Positions 8,028-38,411 of a stretch of DNA of 44,587 nt are shown here, piece by piece. Position numbers and translations under genes: made by a program. Source of the stretch: a virus; IMG/VR virus record IMGVR_UViG_3300009136_000011, positions 1-44,587 of that record. The stretch is one strand, 5' to 3'. Numbering within the stretch: the first letter of the stretch is position 1; each line of letters begins with the position of its first letter. Below the pieces are notes generated by a model that ran no database searches, was not told the DNA's origin, and saw only the letters and a program-made list of their open reading frames with translations.

Positions 8028-8320
8028 TATTCGTCCTTGAAGAATCTCTCGACGGTTGTCAGCGGATCATTCTCTCGGTCACGCGCCTCCATCTCGTAAG
8101 GGTGATCCATGTAGCCAAACTTGTAGAGATGCCACAGATACTTGGCGTAGAACGTCCACCAGCCATCGCGCTGGACCTGATATACGTGTTCCATCTCATG
8201 CCGAAAAAGACGGTCAGAACAGTCCTCTTTGGCATGGCGAATGAACATGAACGGATACAGGACCCATCCGGTGTAGCCCTTGCGGACCAGCCTGCTGCTA
8301 TAGCGGACTCTCAATTTCAC
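8027..8320 (-). CDS. Small HExxH protein, putative zinc metallopeptidase
   Basis: The GTG at 8320-8318 overlaps the fibre stop as GTGA, giving 97 residues; an ATG at 8344 would add eight. The motif HEMEH at residues 41-45 matches the zinc-binding HExxH of metallopeptidases and is preceded by a hydrophobic/aromatic stretch. About 30 residues later comes 'YEMEAR', a possible third-ligand region. Tiny proteins of this form occur in phage structural operons and are often annotated as putative peptidases without proof. A second HExxH gene lies at 22425-22850. Possible roles are virion protein processing or envelope penetration. Confidence 0.65.
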   Translation of the reverse strand: MKLRVRYSSRLVRKGYTGWVLYPFMFIRHAKEDCSDRLFRHEMEHVYQVQRDGWWTFYAKYLWHLYKFGYMDHPYEMEARDRENDPLTTVERFFKDE

Positions 8321-24160: not shown

Positions 24161-24688
24161 ATGCTAGATACCAACTCCAAAGCTCTCTGGGATGCCATGA
24201 CCGTCGAGGCTGGCAAACACAACGAGACCAACGACTGCACTGTCCGCTGCCTGACAGCTTCGACAGGGCTGCCATACGATGTCTGCCACGCTCAGCTCAA
24301 GAAGCAGGGCCGCAAAAACCGCAAGGGCTGTCACTGGTTCATCGAGGGTCCGAAGGCTGCCAAGGCCCTTGGATTCACGATGCGCAAATTGGGCCGTGAC
24401 GAGTACCGGGCCAAGACGATGATAACCGCCGAGCGGGATCGCAAGCTGCAGTCTGGCAGCTACGCTGTTCTGGTCCGAGGCCACGTTGCCGCGATGGTCG
24501 ATGGCAAGGTCATCGACTGGAGCCAAGGTCGCCGCCACAGAATCGCAGCGATCTACGAAGTCACCAAAGACGCCAATGTCCCGGCACCAGTTCCGGCCAA
24601 GCCGAAACGCAGCAGGATGCCCAAGGGCTCGACGACATGGCAGTCATTCCGCAAGTACAAGAAAGCTGACAATCTGGAGCTGTTCTGA
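24161..24688 (+). CDS. Papain/C39-like cysteine peptidase-fold protein
   Basis: The protein has 175 residues. 'NETNDCTVRCLTASTGLPYDVCHAQLKKQGR' places a candidate nucleophile Cys26 in the 'DC.VR.L' motif of small phage C39-like proteins. 'SGSYAVLVRGHVAAMVDGKVIDW' supplies the matching His108 and Asp119 of a Cys-His-Asp triad. The C-terminal ~40 residues are basic and look disordered. It is the first gene of the rightward block, so it is probably expressed early. A host-directed protease or deubiquitinase-like activity is possible; the substrate is unknown. Confidence 0.7.
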   Translation: MLDTNSKALWDAMTVEAGKHNETNDCTVRCLTASTGLPYDVCHAQLKKQGRKNRKGCHWFIEGPKAAKALGFTMRKLGRDEYRAKTMITAERDRKLQSGSYAVLVRGHVAAMVDGKVIDWSQGRRHRIAAIYEVTKDANVPAPVPAKPKRSRMPKGSTTWQSFRKYKKADNLELF

Positions 24689-25689
24689 TGCCAGCACAAG
24701 CTGACTTGTTTCCCGTATCCCGCCCCGGCCGGATCGAGCTCCCTGAGGGCTCTCCGGTCGTGGTCTGTTACGGAGCTGGCGTCGACTCGACGGCCATGCT
24801 GATCGCCCTGCACCGGGCAGGAATCACCCCGGACCTAATCACGTTCGCTGATGTCGGAGCTGAGAAGCCAGAGACATACGCGATGGTCGAAACGATGAAC
24901 CAGTGGTGCCGCTCAGTCGGCTTCCCTGAGGTCGTGACCTGCACCAAACTGACTCTGCCGACGACAGGCTACGACACGCTGACCGGCAACTGCACCAGCA
25001 ACGAAACGCTGCCTTCACTGGCCTTCGGAATGAAGTCCTGCAGCATCAAATGGAAGCAGGGACCGCAGGACCAATATCTGCGAGGATGCGCTTCCGGTCC
25101 AAACAAACGAGACCCGCACCCCGTATGGTCTGCGGCCCAGGATCGCGGCGTAAAACCAGTGAAGCTGATCGGCTACGATGCCGGCCCTGCAGATCTGCGC
25201 CGATCCAAGAAACTCAAGGAGGCCGATGCTCACTTCGAGTACCGCTATCCGCTGCAACAACTCGGCATGGCTCGAGGCGAGTGCATCGCACTGATCGTCG
25301 ACGAGGGCCTGCCAGTTCCGATCAAGAGCGCCTGCTACTTCTGCCCCGCATCCCAGAAATGGGAATTGTGGTGGCTGGCCGGCGAGCATCCTGAGCTGTT
25401 CGAGAAGGCTCTCGAGATGGAGGTCACAGCGATGACTGGCCATCACACAAGATTCGACGAGATCGAGATGGGCGCCGGCTTCATGGAGCTGATCGGATCT
25501 GGAAAACGCTGGCCGTCGACGAGCACCACTGTCGGACTCGGCCGGTCGTTTGCTTGGAACCACTGGGCACGAATGAACAACGTCTGTGACAGCGCCGGCA
25601 AGGTCATTGCTGACCGCGAATGGTGTCTGGCACAGGCCAGTAAACTGAAAGCCTCAGGCGGCAATGCTGCCGACCTGAGAACCTGCTAA
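24688..25689 (+). CDS. PP-loop ATP pyrophosphatase, PAPS reductase-like (first copy)
   Basis: The protein has 333 residues. The PP-loop is GAGVDSTA at residues 29-36 (canonical SGGxDS with Ala for the first Gly pair), after 'GSPVVVCY'. Cysteine motifs follow: 'GMKSCSIKWKQGP', similar to the CysH-family 'C...K..P', and 'ACYFCPAS', about 100 residues apart. Family members activate a substrate by adenylation and often add or remove sulfur (PAPS reductase, DndC, tRNA thiolases). It lacks the catalytic C-terminal ECGLH of true CysH, so assimilatory sulfate reduction is unlikely. The start overlaps the upstream stop as TGATG. Confidence 0.8.
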   Translation: MPAQADLFPVSRPGRIELPEGSPVVVCYGAGVDSTAMLIALHRAGITPDLITFADVGAEKPETYAMVETMNQWCRSVGFPEVVTCTKLTLPTTGYDTLTGNCTSNETLPSLAFGMKSCSIKWKQGPQDQYLRGCASGPNKRDPHPVWSAAQDRGVKPVKLIGYDAGPADLRRSKKLKEADAHFEYRYPLQQLGMARGECIALIVDEGLPVPIKSACYFCPASQKWELWWLAGEHPELFEKALEMEVTAMTGHHTRFDEIEMGAGFMELIGSGKRWPSTSTTVGLGRSFAWNHWARMNNVCDSAGKVIADREWCLAQASKLKASGGNAADLRTC

Positions 25690-25690
25690 C

Positions 25691-25699
25691 CGCGAGGAA
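25691..25699 (+). promoter_or_regulatory. CGCGAGGAA leader/ribosome site 2
   Basis: This exact copy lies five bases before the ATG at 25705, in the short gap after the first PP-loop gene, and is preceded by AAC as in copies 1 and 3. Confidence 0.7.
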
Positions 25700-25704
25700 A
25701 TACC

Positions 25705-26148
25705 ATGAACTACGAAGAAATAGCACTGAACGCAATCGACGCAGCCGACAAGCTGCACAGCGACAACAAGGCACCAGCTCGCAAACAGGGCTGCCGCATA
25801 TTCTCCAGAGGTTTCGAGTTCCTATCGCTCGACGCCAAGGGCGAGCGGGACGAGCAAGTCGTCGACTACTGCGACCGCAACGAGATGACCGCCGAGATGG
25901 TCAAGGAACAGGCCGAGGACTGCATCAGGTCTGGCTCTGCTTTTCTGGCCATCGGCTACGGTGTCGATGCCAGCGAATCTCAGGAGTATTACGACGCTGG
26001 AGACTATGAGCCGATGTACGACTGGATAGACTTGGACAACGTCCCGCTGGCGGCACCAGCACCGGACTGCTTCATGTGTCCCGCCAAGGCCGAGTACGTG
26101 GTCCATGGCCATGACGTCTGCGAGACCTGCGCCGGAGAGATTGCGTGA
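25705..26148 (+). CDS. Hypothetical protein with C-terminal zinc ribbon
   Basis: This 147-residue acidic protein has a C-terminus containing CFMC and CETC about 20 residues apart, a likely four-cysteine zinc site. The N-terminal 110 residues are helical and acidic. It lies between the PP-loop gene and a small membrane protein. It could be a partner or adaptor of the modification enzymes. This is inferred from position only. Confidence 0.65.
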   Translation: MNYEEIALNAIDAADKLHSDNKAPARKQGCRIFSRGFEFLSLDAKGERDEQVVDYCDRNEMTAEMVKEQAEDCIRSGSAFLAIGYGVDASESQEYYDAGDYEPMYDWIDLDNVPLAAPAPDCFMCPAKAEYVVHGHDVCETCAGEIA

Positions 26149-26330
26149 AGGGCCACCAACGCTCAGTAGCTTGGCAGGCCGCGGCGCTCGTCGCCGTGGT
26201 CTCTGTCATGCCGCGCTGGTTCCTGATCCCTGAGGACATGCTCCAGCATACCGTCAACAACTACCTGAGCCTGTCAGTGTTCGCACTGTGCATTCTGGCG
26301 GCTTGGTACAGCAGCACTGATGAGGCCTAG
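26145..26330 (+). CDS. Small two-helix membrane protein
   Basis: This 61-residue protein has two hydrophobic segments, 'AWQAAALVAVVSVM' and 'YLSLSVFALCILAAWY', separated by a short polar loop. The GTG start overlaps the upstream stop as GTGA. Single or double-helix membrane proteins in early phage blocks often act in superinfection exclusion or host inhibition, but no specific evidence is visible. Confidence 0.6.
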   Translation: MKGHQRSVAWQAAALVAVVSVMPRWFLIPEDMLQHTVNNYLSLSVFALCILAAWYSSTDEA

Positions 26331-26338
26331 TGGCCGAA

Positions 26339-26356
26339 ACTGGGAGAGGTCCCAGT
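26339..26356 (+). other. Hairpin between operon segments
   Basis: The sequence ACTGGGA-GAGG-TCCCAGT makes a perfect 7-bp stem with a 4-base loop in the 63-base gap after the membrane protein. The following bases (CTGTTGCAATTT) are only mildly U-rich, so termination would be weak. It may stabilise an mRNA end. Confidence 0.5.
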
Positions 26357-26378
26357 CTGTTGCAATTTCGCAGCTAAC

Positions 26379-26387
26379 CGCGAGGAA
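26379..26387 (+). promoter_or_regulatory. CGCGAGGAA leader/ribosome site 3
   Basis: This exact copy lies six bases before the ATG at 26394. It is preceded by AAC and stands after the hairpin at 26339. Confidence 0.7.
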
Positions 26388-26393
26388 AAGAAA

Positions 26394-26762
26394 ATGACAC
26401 GACAACCAAAATGGACCCCTGAGGAGAACAACGCCGTTTGCGGCTTGTATTTCATCATGTCCGAGCACGTACTGATCGATGCCGAGTACAACAAGGCCGC
26501 CATGATCCGGGCCGCTCAGGGCATCAGGCTCGACGGCTCCATCTCGAACCCCGACGCACAGCTCAGGCTTCGCAGCCGGGGCAGCATCGAGGCCAAGCTG
26601 ATGAACGTCACGGCATGTCTGCGTGACCTTGGCGGCGCCTTCACCGAGCGCAGCCTCGAGGAGCACGGCTACCGAGCCATGTCGAACTATCAGGCTGACC
26701 TGAAACAGGTCGTCGCCCGGTTCTTCGATCCGATCGATGTGTCTGGCGAGCACGTAGCATGA
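26394..26762 (+). CDS. Domain known from restriction-associated (DUF3883-type) proteins, standing alone
   Basis: This 122-residue protein matches, from memory, the N-terminal domain of many restriction-like and DUF3883 proteins. The shared features are 'WTPEENNAVCGLYF' at residues 7-20, 'RSRGSIEAKLMNVTACLRDLG' at about 60-80, and 'GYRAMSNYQADLKQVV' at about 92-107. In those proteins the domain is fused to nuclease modules; here no nuclease is attached. It may bind DNA or target the modification enzymes encoded beside it. The next gene overlaps as ATGA. Confidence 0.6.
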   Translation: MTRQPKWTPEENNAVCGLYFIMSEHVLIDAEYNKAAMIRAAQGIRLDGSISNPDAQLRLRSRGSIEAKLMNVTACLRDLGGAFTERSLEEHGYRAMSNYQADLKQVVARFFDPIDVSGEHVA

Positions 26763-27748
26763 TCGAGCGCCTTCATCGGCTCGATGTCACTCGTCTGGCC
26801 GCGGACTTTTCCGCGGCCGTTCGAGCGGCACACTCCGAGGCTGAGCTGCAAGCGATCCGAGATCGCAACGCCGCGGAGACCGACCCTGCAATCGACCATG
26901 TCCACGACTACACCGACGCCAACGATCTGATGGCCGAGGCGATCAATTGTCAGTGGTCTGGCCTGCAGGATTTCACCGGGAACGACTGGAGCTGGTCCGA
27001 CTTTGCCGACGAGATCGAGGACGCTTGGAGCCGCGCGAAAGCGACCGGCTTCAAGCTGAGCCGCATCCTGATCGGCTGCGAATTCTCGGGCACAGTTCGA
27101 GATGCTTTCGCCGCTCGAGGCCACTCGGTTATGAGCTGCGACATCATCGACACCGAGGCACCGGGACCGCACCACATTGGCGACGTCAGGGAGATTATGA
27201 ACGATGGCTGGCACATGGCCATCATGCACCCGCCCTGCACTTACATCGCCGCCTGCCAGCTCTGGAGATGCCTGCCGAAACATGCGGCCAAGCACCCCGG
27301 CCGAGCTGCCAAGAAAGCCGAGGCGATCGAGTTTGTCCGAGATCTGGGCACGGCTGACGTCGAGCAGATGTGCGTCGAGAATCCAAAGAGCTGCATCGGC
27401 ACCGAGGGAGCACTTCCCGGCTTCGATCCTCAGCTCGTCCAGCCGTACCACTACGGCCACGACCACAGCAAAGAGACCTACCTCTGGCGCAAGAACCTGC
27501 CGGAGCTGGTCGACGATCCGGCTGACCACATCGCACCGCGGCAGGTCATGTACAACGGCAAGCTGCGCGATCGCTGGTCCAACCAGAGCCCCTGTGGCGC
27601 TGACAACCGAGGACCCAGTGCAACCCGAGGCCACGATCGCTCGCGGTTCTTCTCGGGCTTTGCAGACGCCATGGCAGACCAGTGGGGCGGTATCGCCCGG
27701 AAGCTGACGGCCAAGGCCGAGGTCGTTCAATTGGAGATGTTCGCATGA
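26759..27748 (+). CDS. C5-cytosine DNA methyltransferase-like protein
   Basis: The protein has 329 residues. Residues 103-130 ('ILIGCEFSGTVRDAFAARGHSVMSCDI') form the SAM-binding motif I region. 'MHPPC' at 156-160 supplies the motif IV PPC with the catalytic cysteine. 'CVENP' at 205-209 matches motif VI ENV/ENP. Target-recognition and motif VIII-X regions are short or divergent. The N-terminal ~100 residues are an extra acidic domain. It may methylate cytosine for protection against host restriction, or act on a modified base together with the neighbouring PP-loop enzymes. Confidence 0.75.
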   Translation: MIERLHRLDVTRLAADFSAAVRAAHSEAELQAIRDRNAAETDPAIDHVHDYTDANDLMAEAINCQWSGLQDFTGNDWSWSDFADEIEDAWSRAKATGFKLSRILIGCEFSGTVRDAFAARGHSVMSCDIIDTEAPGPHHIGDVREIMNDGWHMAIMHPPCTYIAACQLWRCLPKHAAKHPGRAAKKAEAIEFVRDLGTADVEQMCVENPKSCIGTEGALPGFDPQLVQPYHYGHDHSKETYLWRKNLPELVDDPADHIAPRQVMYNGKLRDRWSNQSPCGADNRGPSATRGHDRSRFFSGFADAMADQWGGIARKLTAKAEVVQLEMFA

Positions 27749-28509
27749 ACCACATCGAAGCCATCGAGGCCGGCGCGGTTGTCTTTGTTTCCCACTCGGG
27801 AGGCAAGGACAGCCAAGCCATGTATGCACATCTCCGGGGCATCGTCCCGGCTGACCAGATCGTCGTCGTCCACGCTAATCTGGGCGAGGTCGAATGGTCT
27901 GGCGTCATCGACCACATCGAGGAGAACATCAGTCACGACCTGAACATCGTGAAGGCTGGCAAGACGTTTCTCGAGATGGTCGAGAGCCGCTTCGAGAAGC
28001 GCCCGGAGGTTCCCTGCTGGCCGAGCCCGAAGCACCGGCAATGCACCAGCGATCTCAAGCGAGGACCGATCCAGAAGTTCATACGGGCCGAGATGAAACG
28101 GCGCGGATCTCTGCTGGCGATCAACGCCATGGGGCTCCGGGCCGAGGAGTCCAGCGCGAGGGCCAAGCGACCTGACTGGCAGCTCAACAAGATGCTGAGC
28201 AAAGCCGGCCGCGAGGTCTACGACTGGAGCCCGATCCACGACTGGAGCACGGCCAAGGTGTTCAACACGATCAGCGACTACGGCCAGTCACCGTTCTGGG
28301 CATACGCCAAGGGCAACGAAAGGCTGAGCTGCGTGTTCTGCATCATGGGCTGCGAGGGCGACCTGAGGAACGGCGCCGAGCAGAACCCGGAGCTGGCTCG
28401 CAAGTACATCGAGCTCGAGGAGCGCACCGGCTACACGATGTTCGCCTCGGGATCTCTGGCCGAGAAGCTGGCACCAAAATCACCAACGCAACAGGAGTTA
28501 TTCAAATGA
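27745..28509 (+). CDS. PP-loop ATP pyrophosphatase, PAPS reductase-like (second copy)
   Basis: ATG at 27745 overlaps the methyltransferase stop as ATGA, giving 254 residues. The classic PP-loop SGGKDS is at 18-23 after 'AVVFVSH'. 'HRQCTSDLKRGP' is the CysH-type substrate/Cys motif, and 'CVFCIMGC' is a likely metal or sulfur site. It is clearly different in sequence from the first PP-loop protein, so it is not a recent duplicate. No ECGLH-type C-terminus is present. Like DndC-type proteins, it could supply adenylation chemistry for nucleic-acid thiolation; this is a hypothesis. Confidence 0.82.
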   Translation: MNHIEAIEAGAVVFVSHSGGKDSQAMYAHLRGIVPADQIVVVHANLGEVEWSGVIDHIEENISHDLNIVKAGKTFLEMVESRFEKRPEVPCWPSPKHRQCTSDLKRGPIQKFIRAEMKRRGSLLAINAMGLRAEESSARAKRPDWQLNKMLSKAGREVYDWSPIHDWSTAKVFNTISDYGQSPFWAYAKGNERLSCVFCIMGCEGDLRNGAEQNPELARKYIELEERTGYTMFASGSLAEKLAPKSPTQQELFK

Positions 28510-28763
28510 GATCTGACAAATTGAAAGCAATACACCAGCAACAGATCCAGTACGTGCAGGACAGCGGCATCAGCGTCGAGGTCGTGGAGATCTACGGCCA
28601 AGTCACGATGACCAAAGAGGACGAGTCGACGTTCTGCTACCTCGAGGGATTCGAGGCCGAGGTGTTCATCAGCGCAGCCAAGCACGACTGGCACACGTTC
28701 GAGGACATCACCATGGCCGAGGCCTACGAGCTGCAGGCGTACAAGTTCGCTGACATCGAGTGA
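28506..28763 (+). CDS. Small acidic hypothetical protein
   Basis: This 85-residue protein is rich in Glu and Asp, with beta-like segments (ISVEVVEIYGQVTMTKEDE). It overlaps the PP-loop stop as ATGA and is the last gene of the cassette before a structured gap. Acidic DNA-mimic antirestriction proteins have this size and charge, but there is no specific match. Confidence 0.6.
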   Translation: MRSDKLKAIHQQQIQYVQDSGISVEVVEIYGQVTMTKEDESTFCYLEGFEAEVFISAAKHDWHTFEDITMAEAYELQAYKFADIE

Positions 28764-33833: not shown

Positions 33834-34165
33834 GGCTGCTCCGGCAACCGGCGCCAGTGTGTGAAATGTACCTCGCTTGGATGCGGCAGCATGTTCGAGT
33901 TGCTCCGATTGCTGGAGAACATATCGATCTTGAAGCCGTACTCTTTGGAGAATGTCAGCAGGTTCACCTCCTCGGGCACCGCCTCCTCCTTGACATGCCA
34001 GTCGTCTGGATTCGGCACCAGATCAAACGAGATCTGGGCCCATTCCCAGATCCCTACCCGACACGTACAGCAGAAGGCGAAGGGCACCAGCCCGACGAAG
34101 CCCTCGCAGCCAACCTCGTCCACATTGAACGAGGAGCTGCAGATGGAGCAATAGCGGACGTTCAC
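33830..34165 (-). CDS. Zinc-ribbon hypothetical protein
   Basis: The GTG at 34165 overlaps the ParB-like stop as GTGA, giving 111 residues beginning MNVRYCSICSSSF. Two CxxC-type pairs (CSIC and CCTC, about 25 residues apart) form a probable zinc site. The C-terminal half is polar. The function is unknown. Confidence 0.6.
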   Translation of the reverse strand: MNVRYCSICSSSFNVDEVGCEGFVGLVPFAFCCTCRVGIWEWAQISFDLVPNPDDWHVKEEAVPEEVNLLTFSKEYGFKIDMFSSNRSNSNMLPHPSEVHFTHWRRLPEQP

Positions 34166-34902
34166 TTGGCCTTTCGCCGTATCAGCACGGCATGACTGCA
34201 CCACGCTGCCACGTACTCGAGATCCGCTGTGTCGTCTGCGCTGAGGTCGACGAACTGGCTGTTGACATCCTCACCACCAAACGGGAAGGCCTTGATTGCG
34301 GACAGAGCCTCGCGGAGCTCGGTCGTGTTGACCTCCTCCTGAGTAGGCGCCGGCCGCGTTGGCCGCTCGTCATCCGGGCTCGGGTCCTCGCCTTTTCCGG
34401 GCTTGTTACCTTTGCCCTTCTTGCGCTTGCCGAGGTTCAGATCCAGATTGTCGCGGATATTGCGCACCGTGCGCTCATTCACCCGACAGATGTCGGCAAT
34501 CTCTATGACCTTGAGCGTGGAGATCTCCGGGTCCTTGAGTGCTACCTCAACAGAGTTTCGCTTGTCGGCATTGGTGCGCCGCAGGCCGTGCTCGTCGTTG
34601 CAGCCCAGAGCCCAGAGCAGGGCCTCATGCAAACCGCCCTCATGGACCTCGACCTTGCACTTCGGGATCTCGGCATTCACGTAGGCGTGATGCCTGTGAA
34701 ACCCATCGGCCAGAATGTAGCGGTCGGAGTCAGTCTCCGCGAACACAACCAGCGCCGGCATCTGCGCGCCATTCTTGAGCGCCTCCGTGTACTCGTCGAT
34801 TGTGGTCTTGTCCAGTTTCTTGCGAACCTGGGTCGCGGCCGAGGCGAGGATGTTGTCCGTCGCCAGTTCCATTTTCCTAATCTTCTTTTTGGTCGGCATC
34901 AT
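34162..34902 (-). CDS. ParB/Srx-domain protein
   Basis: ATG 34902 or 34899 follows AAGGAGG and gives about 246 residues. The ParB N-terminal pattern is visible: 'ALVVFAETDSDRYILADGFHRHHAYVN', then 'ALLWALGCNDEHGLRRTNADKRNSVEVAL', then an HTH 'VIEIADICRVNERTVRNIRDNL'. The tail is Lys/Gly- and Pro-rich. Phage ParB-like proteins act as nucleases or DNA-binding regulators. It sits beside the helicase. Confidence 0.75.
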   Translation of the reverse strand: MMPTKKKIRKMELATDNILASAATQVRKKLDKTTIDEYTEALKNGAQMPALVVFAETDSDRYILADGFHRHHAYVNAEIPKCKVEVHEGGLHEALLWALGCNDEHGLRRTNADKRNSVEVALKDPEISTLKVIEIADICRVNERTVRNIRDNLDLNLGKRKKGKGNKPGKGEDPSPDDERPTRPAPTQEEVNTTELREALSAIKAFPFGGEDVNSQFVDLSADDTADLEYVAAWCSHAVLIRRKAK

Positions 34903-35191
34903 CGTCCTCCTTGGTGCCAAAACTTAGGTCCTGCTGGCTGTTGTAGATGTACTCGAGCGTGGCCTCCTTCTCGTTGGCCAGTTCAGTGATGACCGCCTCC
35001 TCGAGAGTCTTGGTCTGACCGCCTGCCAGCAGCTTGAATATGTCGCGCTTCTCGATGCCGGTGTTCTCGGCAATCACTACCTGCTCGCAGGCTTCCTCGA
35101 ATTTCAGCTTGAGCGCATACAGTTGCTCGGCCGCGTCGTTGCGGAGCCGCTGCCTGAATGACAGCTTTTTCTTCTTAGCTTTCTTCGCCAC
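34877..35191 (-). CDS. Small basic helical protein
   Basis: The GTG at 35191 with GAGG upstream gives 104 residues beginning MAKKAKKKKLSFRQRLRND. The N-terminus is Lys/Arg-rich; the rest is acidic and helical, ending in an Asp/Glu-rich tail. It overlaps both neighbours. It is possibly a DNA-associated partner of the ParB-like protein. Confidence 0.55.
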   Translation of the reverse strand: MAKKAKKKKLSFRQRLRNDAAEQLYALKLKFEEACEQVVIAENTGIEKRDIFKLLAGGQTKTLEEAVITELANEKEATLEYIYNSQQDLSFGTKEDDDADQKED

Positions 35192-36904: not shown

Positions 36905-37188
36905 AGCTCCACCACTACGTTGATGACATTGCCGATCTTCTCGGTCAGCTCGCGGTAGCTCGAGATCTGGTACTGCAGCTCCTCGAGGTCGTTGCGCACT
37001 GGCTCAGGAGGGCAGTCGGTGATCGGATTGAGGCGCTCCTCGTTCTGGCCGTACATCCTGATCTGCACTGACGTCAGCCGATTGAGCTGCAGTTCGAGGT
37101 TGCTGTTTACATCGCTGAGCTCGCTGGCCTGTCGGCGTATCACGCCCTCCGCGCTTGCTGTGGCCACTTGGCCCATTGCTTCACTCAT
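36901..37188 (-). CDS. Coiled-coil hypothetical protein
   Basis: This 95-residue protein begins MSEAMGQVATASAEGVIRR and has heptad-like helical stretches ('LSDVNSNLELQLNRL' and 'LEELQYQISSYRELTEKIG'). It overlaps the ribbon-helix-helix gene upstream by 4 bases. No family is recognised. Confidence 0.58.
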   Translation of the reverse strand: MSEAMGQVATASAEGVIRRQASELSDVNSNLELQLNRLTSVQIRMYGQNEERLNPITDCPPEPVRNDLEELQYQISSYRELTEKIGNVINVVVEL

Positions 37189-37337
37189 ACTGGAATCCTC
37201 TTCTTTTTGGCTTGGTTGCGAATAAAGTTCCGCAAGTAGTTGGATTTGCTCACGCCTTCGCGTTTTGCCAGTGCTTCCAGGGCATTGTTCTCGCGAGGGC
37301 TGAGCCGCATGTGGAACTGCTTGTCTTTAATCTCCAT
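37185..37337 (-). CDS. CopG/Arc-like ribbon-helix-helix protein
   Basis: ATG 37337 gives 50 residues. 'KQFHMRLSPRENNALEALAKREGVSKSNYLRNFI' is a typical ribbon-helix-helix pattern: a short strand followed by two helices. No Shine-Dalgarno sequence precedes the ATG. It is the first gene of the leftward block and faces the recombination operon across a short shared regulatory gap, so it probably autoregulates both. Confidence 0.68.
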   Translation of the reverse strand: MEIKDKQFHMRLSPRENNALEALAKREGVSKSNYLRNFIRNQAKKKRIPV

Positions 37338-37394
37338 ACGGGCTACAGTAAACACGTTTGTAAACACAGTCAAATAAACTTACGCGAGGAAAAA
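37338..37394. promoter_or_regulatory. Divergent control region with GTGTTTAC repeats
   Basis: On the minus strand two direct GTGTTTAC copies stand 12 bases apart, between TTGACT (-35) and TACTGT, with 17 bases of spacing. A transcript from this promoter would start at or next to the ATG of the ribbon-helix-helix gene, i.e. be leaderless. On the plus strand the gap ends with the CGCGAGGAA site. The repeats are likely operators for the ribbon-helix-helix protein. Confidence 0.5.
37383..37391 (+). promoter_or_regulatory. CGCGAGGAA leader/ribosome site 5
   Basis: This exact copy lies three bases before the ATG at 37395, the shortest spacing of the set. Confidence 0.7.
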
Positions 37395-38411
37395 ATGGAT
37401 ACCGAAAATCAAGAATCTGTCCGTGAGGACGAAGCATCAGAAGGGCTCGAAAACCGAGTCATAACTTTCAACATCAACGACGCTGCCATCGCTGAGATCA
37501 AAGAGGATCTCGGAGAGGTCGACGCCTATAAGGATCTGGCTGGCGCCAAGGCTGCGAAGAAAACCTTGACCAAGATGCGCACCACCCTGGGCGAGGCTCA
37601 CAAGGCAGCCAAGGCAGACGCGCTGGCCTACGGTCGACGCTGTGACGGCGAGAAGAATCGCCTGCTCGAGCTCATCGCTGAGATCGAGGACCCGATCACC
37701 GAGCAGCTCGACGAGATCAAGAACGCCGAGGCTCGCGAGGAGCAGCAGCGACAGGACAAGATCATGGAGGGCATCGAACAGATCCAAGCCTTCGCTCTTG
37801 ACCGTCACGATCTGACGTTCGACCAGCTCAACGAGCGACTCGACACCCTGCTATCCCTCAAGGTTGACCCGGATTTTTACGCCGAGCACACCGAGGATGC
37901 AGAGAATGCCAAGGAGGTAGCCGAATCCAAGCTGCGCATCGCCATCATCAATGAGCAGTCGCGGCTCGAAGAGGTAGCCAAGAACGAGGCCATCGAGGCT
38001 GAGAACAAGGAGCTGCGCGAGAAACTGGCCAAGTCTGAGGCCGAGCAGGCCGAGAAGGATGCAGCCCAGAAGGTCATCGACGATGCCGCTGCTGCTGAGC
38101 AGAAGGAGAAGGATGACGCTCGCCAGAAGGAGCTCGACGATCAGGCCGAAGAGCAGCGCATCGCTCAGGAAAAGATCGACGCCGACGCTGCCGAGAAGGC
38201 CCAGAAGGAGGCCGACGACGAGGCTGCTGCGCTCGCCGCCATTCAGGCACCAGACCGAGAGAAGCTGACGCTGTTCGCTGATGCCGTTGGCCATCTGGTC
38301 AATGTGAAACCCACGCTGCAGTCGGACGCCGGCAACCAGATCCTATTGGACGCGGTCGCCAGCCTGCTGCAGGTCAAGAGCTACATCGAAACCAAACGCG
38401 AGGAACTGTAA
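37395..38411 (+). CDS. Coiled-coil protein of the recombination operon
   Basis: This 338-residue, highly charged protein has a central and C-terminal region (about 180-290) that is a long Glu/Lys/Ala coiled coil. The N-terminal 'ITFNINDAAIAEIKEDLGEVDAYKDLAGAKAAKKTLTKMRTTLGEAHKAAKADALAYGRRCDGEKNRLLELI' resembles phage proteins encoded with annealing proteins. It lies directly upstream of ERF, with ATG overlap. It is probably an accessory of recombination. Initiation is at 37395, where the CGCGAGGAA site lies. Confidence 0.7.
   Translation: MDTENQESVREDEASEGLENRVITFNINDAAIAEIKEDLGEVDAYKDLAGAKAAKKTLTKMRTTLGEAHKAAKADALAYGRRCDGEKNRLLELIAEIEDPITEQLDEIKNAEAREEQQRQDKIMEGIEQIQAFALDRHDLTFDQLNERLDTLLSLKVDPDFYAEHTEDAENAKEVAESKLRIAIINEQSRLEEVAKNEAIEAENKELREKLAKSEAEQAEKDAAQKVIDDAAAAEQKEKDDARQKELDDQAEEQRIAQEKIDADAAEKAQKEADDEAAALAAIQAPDREKLTLFADAVGHLVNVKPTLQSDAGNQILLDAVASLLQVKSYIETKREEL
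38397..38405 (+). promoter_or_regulatory. CGCGAGGAA leader/ribosome site 6
   Basis: This exact copy lies inside the end of the coiled-coil gene, five bases before the ERF ATG at 38411. It therefore encodes Arg-Glu-Glu there while serving as a ribosome site. Confidence 0.7.

Follow-up and report, generated by a model that had tools for sequence, protein, structure and literature searches.

Two predicted SspD/DndC-type PP-loop proteins and a compact cytosine methyltransferase in a candidate modular DNA-modification island of a virus

A block of overlapping genes in a phage genome

The window analyzed here is the IMG/VR virus record IMGVR_UViG_3300009136_000011 at its full length of 44,587 bases, and the subject is a gene block at positions 24161-28763 in which two PP-loop proteins, designated PP1 and PP2, flank a compact DNA cytosine-C5 methyltransferase (MT). 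An original prediction, made from the sequence by itself, had described this arrangement as a possible new nucleic-acid modification cassette; the open reading frames of PP1, MT, and PP2 are as first described, and matches to PHROG families and to PF01507 agree with the description. The window carries phage genes for a head-tail connector, an Sf6-type small terminase, and capsid, as well as ERF and YqaJ recombination proteins, a helicase, a CHAP protein, and collagen-like tail genes. No tRNA genes occur in the 44,587-base window, and a nucleotide-level comparison with phage records turned up nothing closely related to it. The block comprises the following genes (L-numbers denote the loci compared):

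24161-24688, + strand: 175-amino-acid protein matching the unannotated PHROG 3754 (E=7e-16), kept 5' of PP1 in L010-L017
24688-25689, + strand: PP1, predicted SspD-like PP-loop ATP-pyrophosphatase, 333 amino acids (PHROG 424, PADLOC SspD, profile comparison, AF2 model)
25705-26148, + strand: 147-amino-acid protein whose two CxxC motifs may form a zinc ribbon at the C terminus
26145-26330, + strand: short hydrophobic open reading frame, 61 amino acids, probable membrane peptide; a weak gene call, known from the open reading frame list only, that overlaps the stop of the 147-amino-acid gene
26394-26762, + strand: D122, stand-alone N-terminal part of the candidate defense family PDC-S36 (PADLOC E=6.5e-13)
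26759-27748, + strand: MT, compact DNA cytosine-C5 methyltransferase, 329 amino acids (PHROG 757, motifs, fold model)
27745-28509, + strand: PP2, predicted SspD/DndC-type PP-loop ATP-pyrophosphatase (PF01507, PADLOC, profile comparison)
28506-28763, + strand: 85-amino-acid protein with a homologue 3' of PP2 in L016

Start and stop codons overlap at five junctions (24688, 26145, 26759, 27745, and 28506), and most neighboring genes are therefore probably translationally coupled. The stop of the 175-amino-acid gene and the start of PP1 share one base (junction TGATG); the start of PP2 is probably the ATG at 27745, which gives an ATGA overlap with the MT stop, and the gene for the 85-amino-acid protein begins with another ATGA overlap at the PP2 stop. 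The zinc-ribbon protein that had been predicted in this block does match Pfam Zn_Ribbon_YjdM, although weakly and below the cut-off (E=0.006); it has homologues in L010, L011, L012, and L016.

MT matches PHROG 757, “DNA methyltransferase” (E=4e-43), with no Pfam family at cut-off, PF00145 included, and a search of its sequence against PDB chains found nothing. The PPC and ENP motifs for which it had first been called a methyltransferase are borne out by 53 relatives, in which the PPC cysteine (C160) and E207-N208-P209 are invariant, and by its structural model. The core of that model has a predicted local distance difference test score (pLDDT) above 90, the N-terminal 100 residues, which are extra, being modeled poorly, and its top 50 PDB matches are all C5-methyltransferases (DNMT3A, M.HaeIII, M.HhaI, and others; best E=3.9e-7). 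As modeled, MT has the C5-methyltransferase fold together with the catalytic Cys/Glu motifs, methylation itself being a predicted activity, and PHROG 757 is a diverged compact form of C5-methyltransferase. D122 covers the first 92 of the 280 positions of PDC-S36, in keeping with the stand-alone domain of the earlier description, which had predicted fusion to restriction nucleases in its relatives. Because it lies directly 5' of MT in every locus showing both, including loci without PP1, it is best read as a probable partner of MT, perhaps its DNA-recognition part.

Placement of PP1 and PP2 among PP-loop enzymes

PP2 matches PF01507 (PAPS_reduct) above the Pfam cut-off (E=4e-10) and, in PADLOC, BrxP (1e-17), SspD (2e-10), and DndC (7e-9). 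Its loop reads SGGKDS, and the invariant or near-invariant motifs of its family are SxGKDS, RxCTxxLK, GxRxxES, and CxFC. PP1 matches PHROG 424, “PAPS reductase” (E=3e-23), scores only 12 bits against PAPS_reduct, under the cut-off, and has SspD as its best PADLOC match (E=1e-10); its loop is GAGVDS and its family motifs, again invariant or nearly so, are GxG(V/T)xS, CSxKxK, and CxFCP. The cysteine centers noted at the outset in both proteins are invariant, C118, C216, and C219 across the 58 aligned PP1 sequences and C102, C198, and C201 across the 49 aligned PP2 sequences, and the catalytic CysH tail ECG(L/I)H, whose absence had also been noted, is found in no aligned member of either family. 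A search of PP1 against PDB chains returned nothing; the corresponding search with PP2 returned weak PP-loop matches only, including weak profile matches to TtuA. The AF2 model of PP1 (pLDDT 90.5) places the [4Fe-4S] tRNA thiolases TtuA and NcsA at the top of a PDB fold search, followed by CysH and LarE.

The two family alignments were compared as profiles with CysH, CysD, DndC, and SspD proteins taken from bacterial genomes. Each reference profile holds three or four sequences (SspD: four), so the ranking of E-values matters more than their exact size, and the reference search for BrxP yielded one fragment only. PP1 ranks closest to SspD (E=1.3e-17 over 209 columns, with CxFC aligned), CysH following at E=0.019. 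PP2 likewise ranks SspD first (E=3.4e-15, CxFC aligned), followed by DndC (6.4e-13) and CysH (7e-7). In a maximum-likelihood tree PP1 (support 100/99), PP2 (94/80), and CysH with CysD (100/98) form separate groups. As judged from these alignments, PP1 and PP2 are two distinct families of PP-loop ATP-pyrophosphatases with invariant cysteines at SspD/DndC positions, and they are very probably of SspD/DndC type rather than CysH. By analogy with TtuA/NcsA-type relatives, the cysteines may hold an Fe-S cluster. The profile comparison that the original prediction had proposed thus puts both proteins nearest SspD/DndC, and tail, profile, and tree agree in leaving them outside the ordinary CysH family, a placement that would have spoken against it.

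SspD is the ATP-pyrophosphatase of single-strand DNA phosphorothioation (SspABCD), and BrxP belongs to BREX type 4. PP1 and PP2 share with these proteins a PP-loop and positions of the CTxxLK and CxFC type that align over about 210 columns, SspD being the best profile match of both; they differ in forming clades of their own, in standing side by side as two families, and in the variant PP-loop of PP1. PP2 also aligns with DndC over about 200 columns, with the RWCTDRLK and GCWxCT cysteines at matching places, but it is shorter, scores 31.6 bits against the 290.4-bit cut-off of the DndC model TIGR03183, and has no DndA, DndD, or DndE beside it among the scanned window proteins; PP1 gives no match to TIGR03183. 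Mobile elements have, by description, another PP-loop protein in the CysH-like protein of type IV-B CRISPR systems (CasCysH), whose role was speculated to resemble that of DndC (PMC8175902), but no csf genes are found here.

A PP-loop pair with changing neighbors

The block is kept in relatives at roughly 50-90% protein identity, with the gene order rearranged in some, and is therefore no chance assembly. The order is PP1-D122-MT-PP2 in L012 and L016, and D122-MT-PP2-PP1 in L023, L116, and L126. The original prediction had treated the three genes as one dedicated cassette, and on this point it does not hold: PP1 and PP2 recur without MT, PP1 and MT occur without PP2, and MT and PP2 occur without PP1. 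An obligate three-gene cassette was rejected on the basis of these independent losses among relatives. When PP1 relatives from phages and bacterial genomes were clustered at 70% identity and MT-anchored control loci were handled alike, 13 of 48 PP1 clusters had PP2 no more than 4 kb away, versus none of 20 control clusters (Fisher p=0.007); a control set anchored on the ERF gene came to 11 loci only and was left aside. C5-methyltransferases lie near PP2 in other lineages as well (L003; MT836451.1, L108; and a Serratia plasmid on which a canonical C5-methyltransferase gene overlaps PP2 by one base). From the proximity of PP1 and PP2 and the variation in their methyltransferase neighbors, it follows that the recurrent unit is PP1 plus PP2, and that MT is one of several interchangeable DNA-modifying neighbors, which include DpdA, DUF6884, and canonical C5-methyltransferases.

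These neighbors are seen on a range of mobile elements. PP1 relatives at 50-60% identity in bacterial genomes often adjoin genes of plasmids or integrative and conjugative elements, and among 72,556 plasmids 136 carry PP1 relatives and 361 carry PP2 relatives. In Hyphomicrobiales and Burkholderiales genomes PP1 is directly coupled to a gene for a DNA transglycosylase of the DpdA family, which it overlaps by 4 bases in L210 (341-2583) and L228 (7929-10171); such a gene also lies directly 3' of PP1 in L216 (E=3e-18 to 4.5e-17 for the three), and L193 (7680-11008) has the order PP1-PP2-DpdA (PF23859, E=3.7e-41). A profile search placed a DUF6884-type protein near PP1 in seven other loci; the Pfam match exceeds the cut-off in L249 (5e-12) and L199 (2e-15) and does not for the open reading frames tested in L226 and L184. 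The TOL plasmid pWW0 carries a PP1 homologue with 57% identity, labeled hypothetical (WP_011005867; NC_003350.1 12857-13948, L381:7914-9005); next come one small gene and a DNA cytosine methyltransferase, and RecX, SSB, and DUF932 lie further on. A P. kurunegalensis plasmid has the same order of PP1, small gene, and methyltransferase. A Shinella plasmid reads ArdC-PP1-PP2 and an Agrobacterium plasmid ArdC-X-PP1, the ArdC assignments being confirmed by Pfam, and on P. aeruginosa plasmid NZ_CP077979.1 (L382:3316-7062) a PP1 homologue lies about 2 kb downstream from the anti-CRISPR genes acrE1 and acrF3. Plasmid leading regions are enriched in orphan methyltransferases and anti-defense genes (PMC11541004), in a paper whose main text makes no mention of genes of the PP1 or PP2 type. 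Orphan phage and plasmid C5-methyltransferases of PHROG 757 share the fold and motifs of MT, which differs in having the PP-loop pair beside it.

Several further arrangements were observed. A protein of Mesorhizobium plasmid MesoLjLa5 (WP_342216486.1, L385:2491-3810) has C5-methyltransferase residues 15-130 fused to a PP1-like part at 177-386; it is a single case with a shortened methyltransferase and was therefore set aside as evidence. Relatives of its PP-loop part are widespread, occurring on Agrobacterium plasmids and in Gordonia and Mycobacterium phages. Pseudoalteromonas phage KB12-38 (L112:4234-10797) has an independent block with a methyltransferase, a PP1-like protein, an NAD-dependent ligase, a second PAPS reductase, and a C5-methyltransferase. 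A third PP-loop subfamily, with SGGRTS or SGGRSS loops, is found in viral contigs L030, L036, L043, and L051, where PHROG 757 methyltransferases are at most about 2.3 kb away. Within the window itself, a ParB-like partition protein (PHROG 1033) is encoded at 34162-34920 on the − strand, and phage C5-alkyltransferases are also accompanied by ParB-domain proteins (PMC12783734); a 418-amino-acid protein at 37155-38411 (+), whose sole match is the unannotated PHROG 16469, adjoins the ERF and YqaJ genes.

A possible counter-restriction function and its alternatives

The reading that we favor, at roughly even odds, is that the block is a modular counter-restriction DNA-modification island; to the statement that PP1 and PP2 protect the DNA of the element by modifying nucleic acid we give similar, evenly balanced, weight. 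Under this reading, PP1 and PP2 would bind ATP, activate a nucleic-acid target by adenylation, and transfer sulfur held at the Cys/Fe-S center, with a host cysteine desulfurase as supplier; in phosphorothioation systems, housekeeping desulfurases are documented to stand in for a dedicated one (PMC12839542). D122 would help to guide the compact MT to DNA, where methylation of cytosine would form a separate layer of protection, and the end product would be element DNA resistant to host nucleases. Sulfur as the added atom is a tentative choice, somewhat on the doubtful side of even. More speculative, and in our judgment rather unlikely, is a general version, in which mobile elements (phages, chromosomal elements, and conjugative plasmids such as pWW0) would have a nucleic-acid hypermodification pathway built around the PP1-PP2 pair. 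The pair would attach sulfur or some other group to the base or the backbone of DNA with no need of the ATPase-nickase machinery of Dnd or Ssp, and a swappable DNA enzyme (C5-methyltransferase, DpdA, or DUF6884) would prepare or finish the site. A single pathway in which MT and the PP-loop enzymes work on the same base seems to us improbable.

Several results weigh against the favored reading. The scan by PADLOC and Pfam of 37 further window proteins, encoded beyond about position 8300, detected no SspA, SspB, SspC, BREX, DndA, DndD, or DndE partner and no sulfur donor. The earlier observation that Dnd partners are missing therefore extends to Ssp; the island cannot be filed as Dnd or Ssp, a standard system of either kind was rejected on these grounds, and thiolation, if it takes place, would have to do without these established partners. 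The fold matches of PP1 have low TM-scores (0.3-0.5), and in the tree its joins with SspD carry a long-branch warning, so that its exact sister group there is provisional. The 56.7-kb record of L011 (G382) has PP1, D122, and MT without PP2, and the 56-kb record of L268 (G384) has D122, MT, and PP2 without PP1; both records may be incomplete. PP2 is missing within 4 kb in 35 of the 48 PP1 clusters, and a C5-methyltransferase lies within 1.5 kb of PP1 in only 4 of 53. In favor of the reading, C5-methyltransferases are about 12 times as dense up to 1.5 kb from PP-loop genes as beyond 4 kb, but in this figure related loci are counted repeatedly.

The alternative that survives best, although we consider it unlikely, is chemistry at the level of the base. 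QueC-type enzymes, nitrile synthetases, and amide ligases with a PP-loop adenylate a carbonyl or carboxylate, and PP1 and PP2 could act in this way on a modified base, together with DpdA, a YaaA-like DUF6884 protein, or a C5-alkyltransferase. The likeness to the Dpd system of 7-deazaguanine DNA modification (DpdA, DpdC) lies in the PP1 genes that overlap or directly precede DpdA or stand near DUF6884, which is distantly related to YaaA/DUF328 (PMC11701544), the family (PF03883) to which DpdC belongs (PMC12839542); these neighbors therefore favor base-level chemistry in at least some elements. A further parallel is the carboxymethylcytosine hypermodification by CmoX and CmoY in phage S-B43, in which a C5-methyltransferase homologue is coupled with an asparagine-synthetase-type ATP-dependent amide ligase (PMC12783734). 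However, MT has HPPC rather than the SPPC of CmoX, PP1 and PP2 are of PAPS (3'-phosphoadenosine 5'-phosphosulfate) reductase type rather than asparagine-synthetase type, and both PP-loop profiles resemble sulfur-transfer enzymes. Further, the scanned window proteins include no CmoA-like protein by Pfam match, and neither DpdA nor DUF6884 by Pfam matches and, for DpdA, by a profile of the L193 protein.

It is also possible, though again improbable, that PP1, PP2, and MT are independent accessory genes, with no common function, that have gathered in one and the same variable region, in phages as in plasmids. Each part does occur without the others, and variable regions collect accessory genes in general, but this does not account for the proximity of PP1 and PP2 relative to control clusters, the overlapping genes, the same set in different orders in relatives, or the independent methyltransferase-PP2 neighbors in L003, L108, and the Serratia plasmid. 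Less probable still is an RNA target, with PP1 and PP2 thiolating or otherwise modifying tRNA or phage RNA in the manner of TtuA, NcsA, and TtcA and MT acting separately on DNA. The nearest PDB folds of PP1 and the weak profile matches of PP2 to TtuA point this way; sequence profiles, however, favor SspD/DndC, the recurrent neighbors are DNA enzymes and anti-restriction and anti-CRISPR genes, and the window is free of tRNA genes. Auxiliary sulfur assimilation, in which reductases of PAPS or adenosine 5'-phosphosulfate would feed host cysteine synthesis during infection, has the names of PHROG 424 and PF01507 in its favor and was rejected as extremely improbable, given the missing catalytic tail (present in four host CysH references), the profile comparison, the separate CysH and CysD branch, and the fact that hosts of PP1 elements carry their own members of the PAPS-reductase family, several with ECG(L/I)H.

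Phage “PAPS reductases” and orphan methyltransferases were already known. In 2025, SspD matches by PADLOC were reported from Sinorhizobium prophages, alongside MTase_II, their verification being left to later work (PMC12429752), and in open-licence papers we found no description of the PP1-PP2 pair or of its DpdA, DUF6884, and ArdC context. Proteins under the name “PAPS reductase” are found in many phages and plasmids and are taken to be metabolic, a name that is probably wrong for those of the PP1 and PP2 types. Here two such subfamilies group with DNA-thiolation enzymes and have DNA-modification, ArdC, and anti-CRISPR genes as neighbors, among other places on pWW0, a tractable laboratory plasmid in which the question of function can be tested. 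If the DNA is indeed modified, a considerable number of “sulfur metabolism” annotations would in fact stand for counter-defense.

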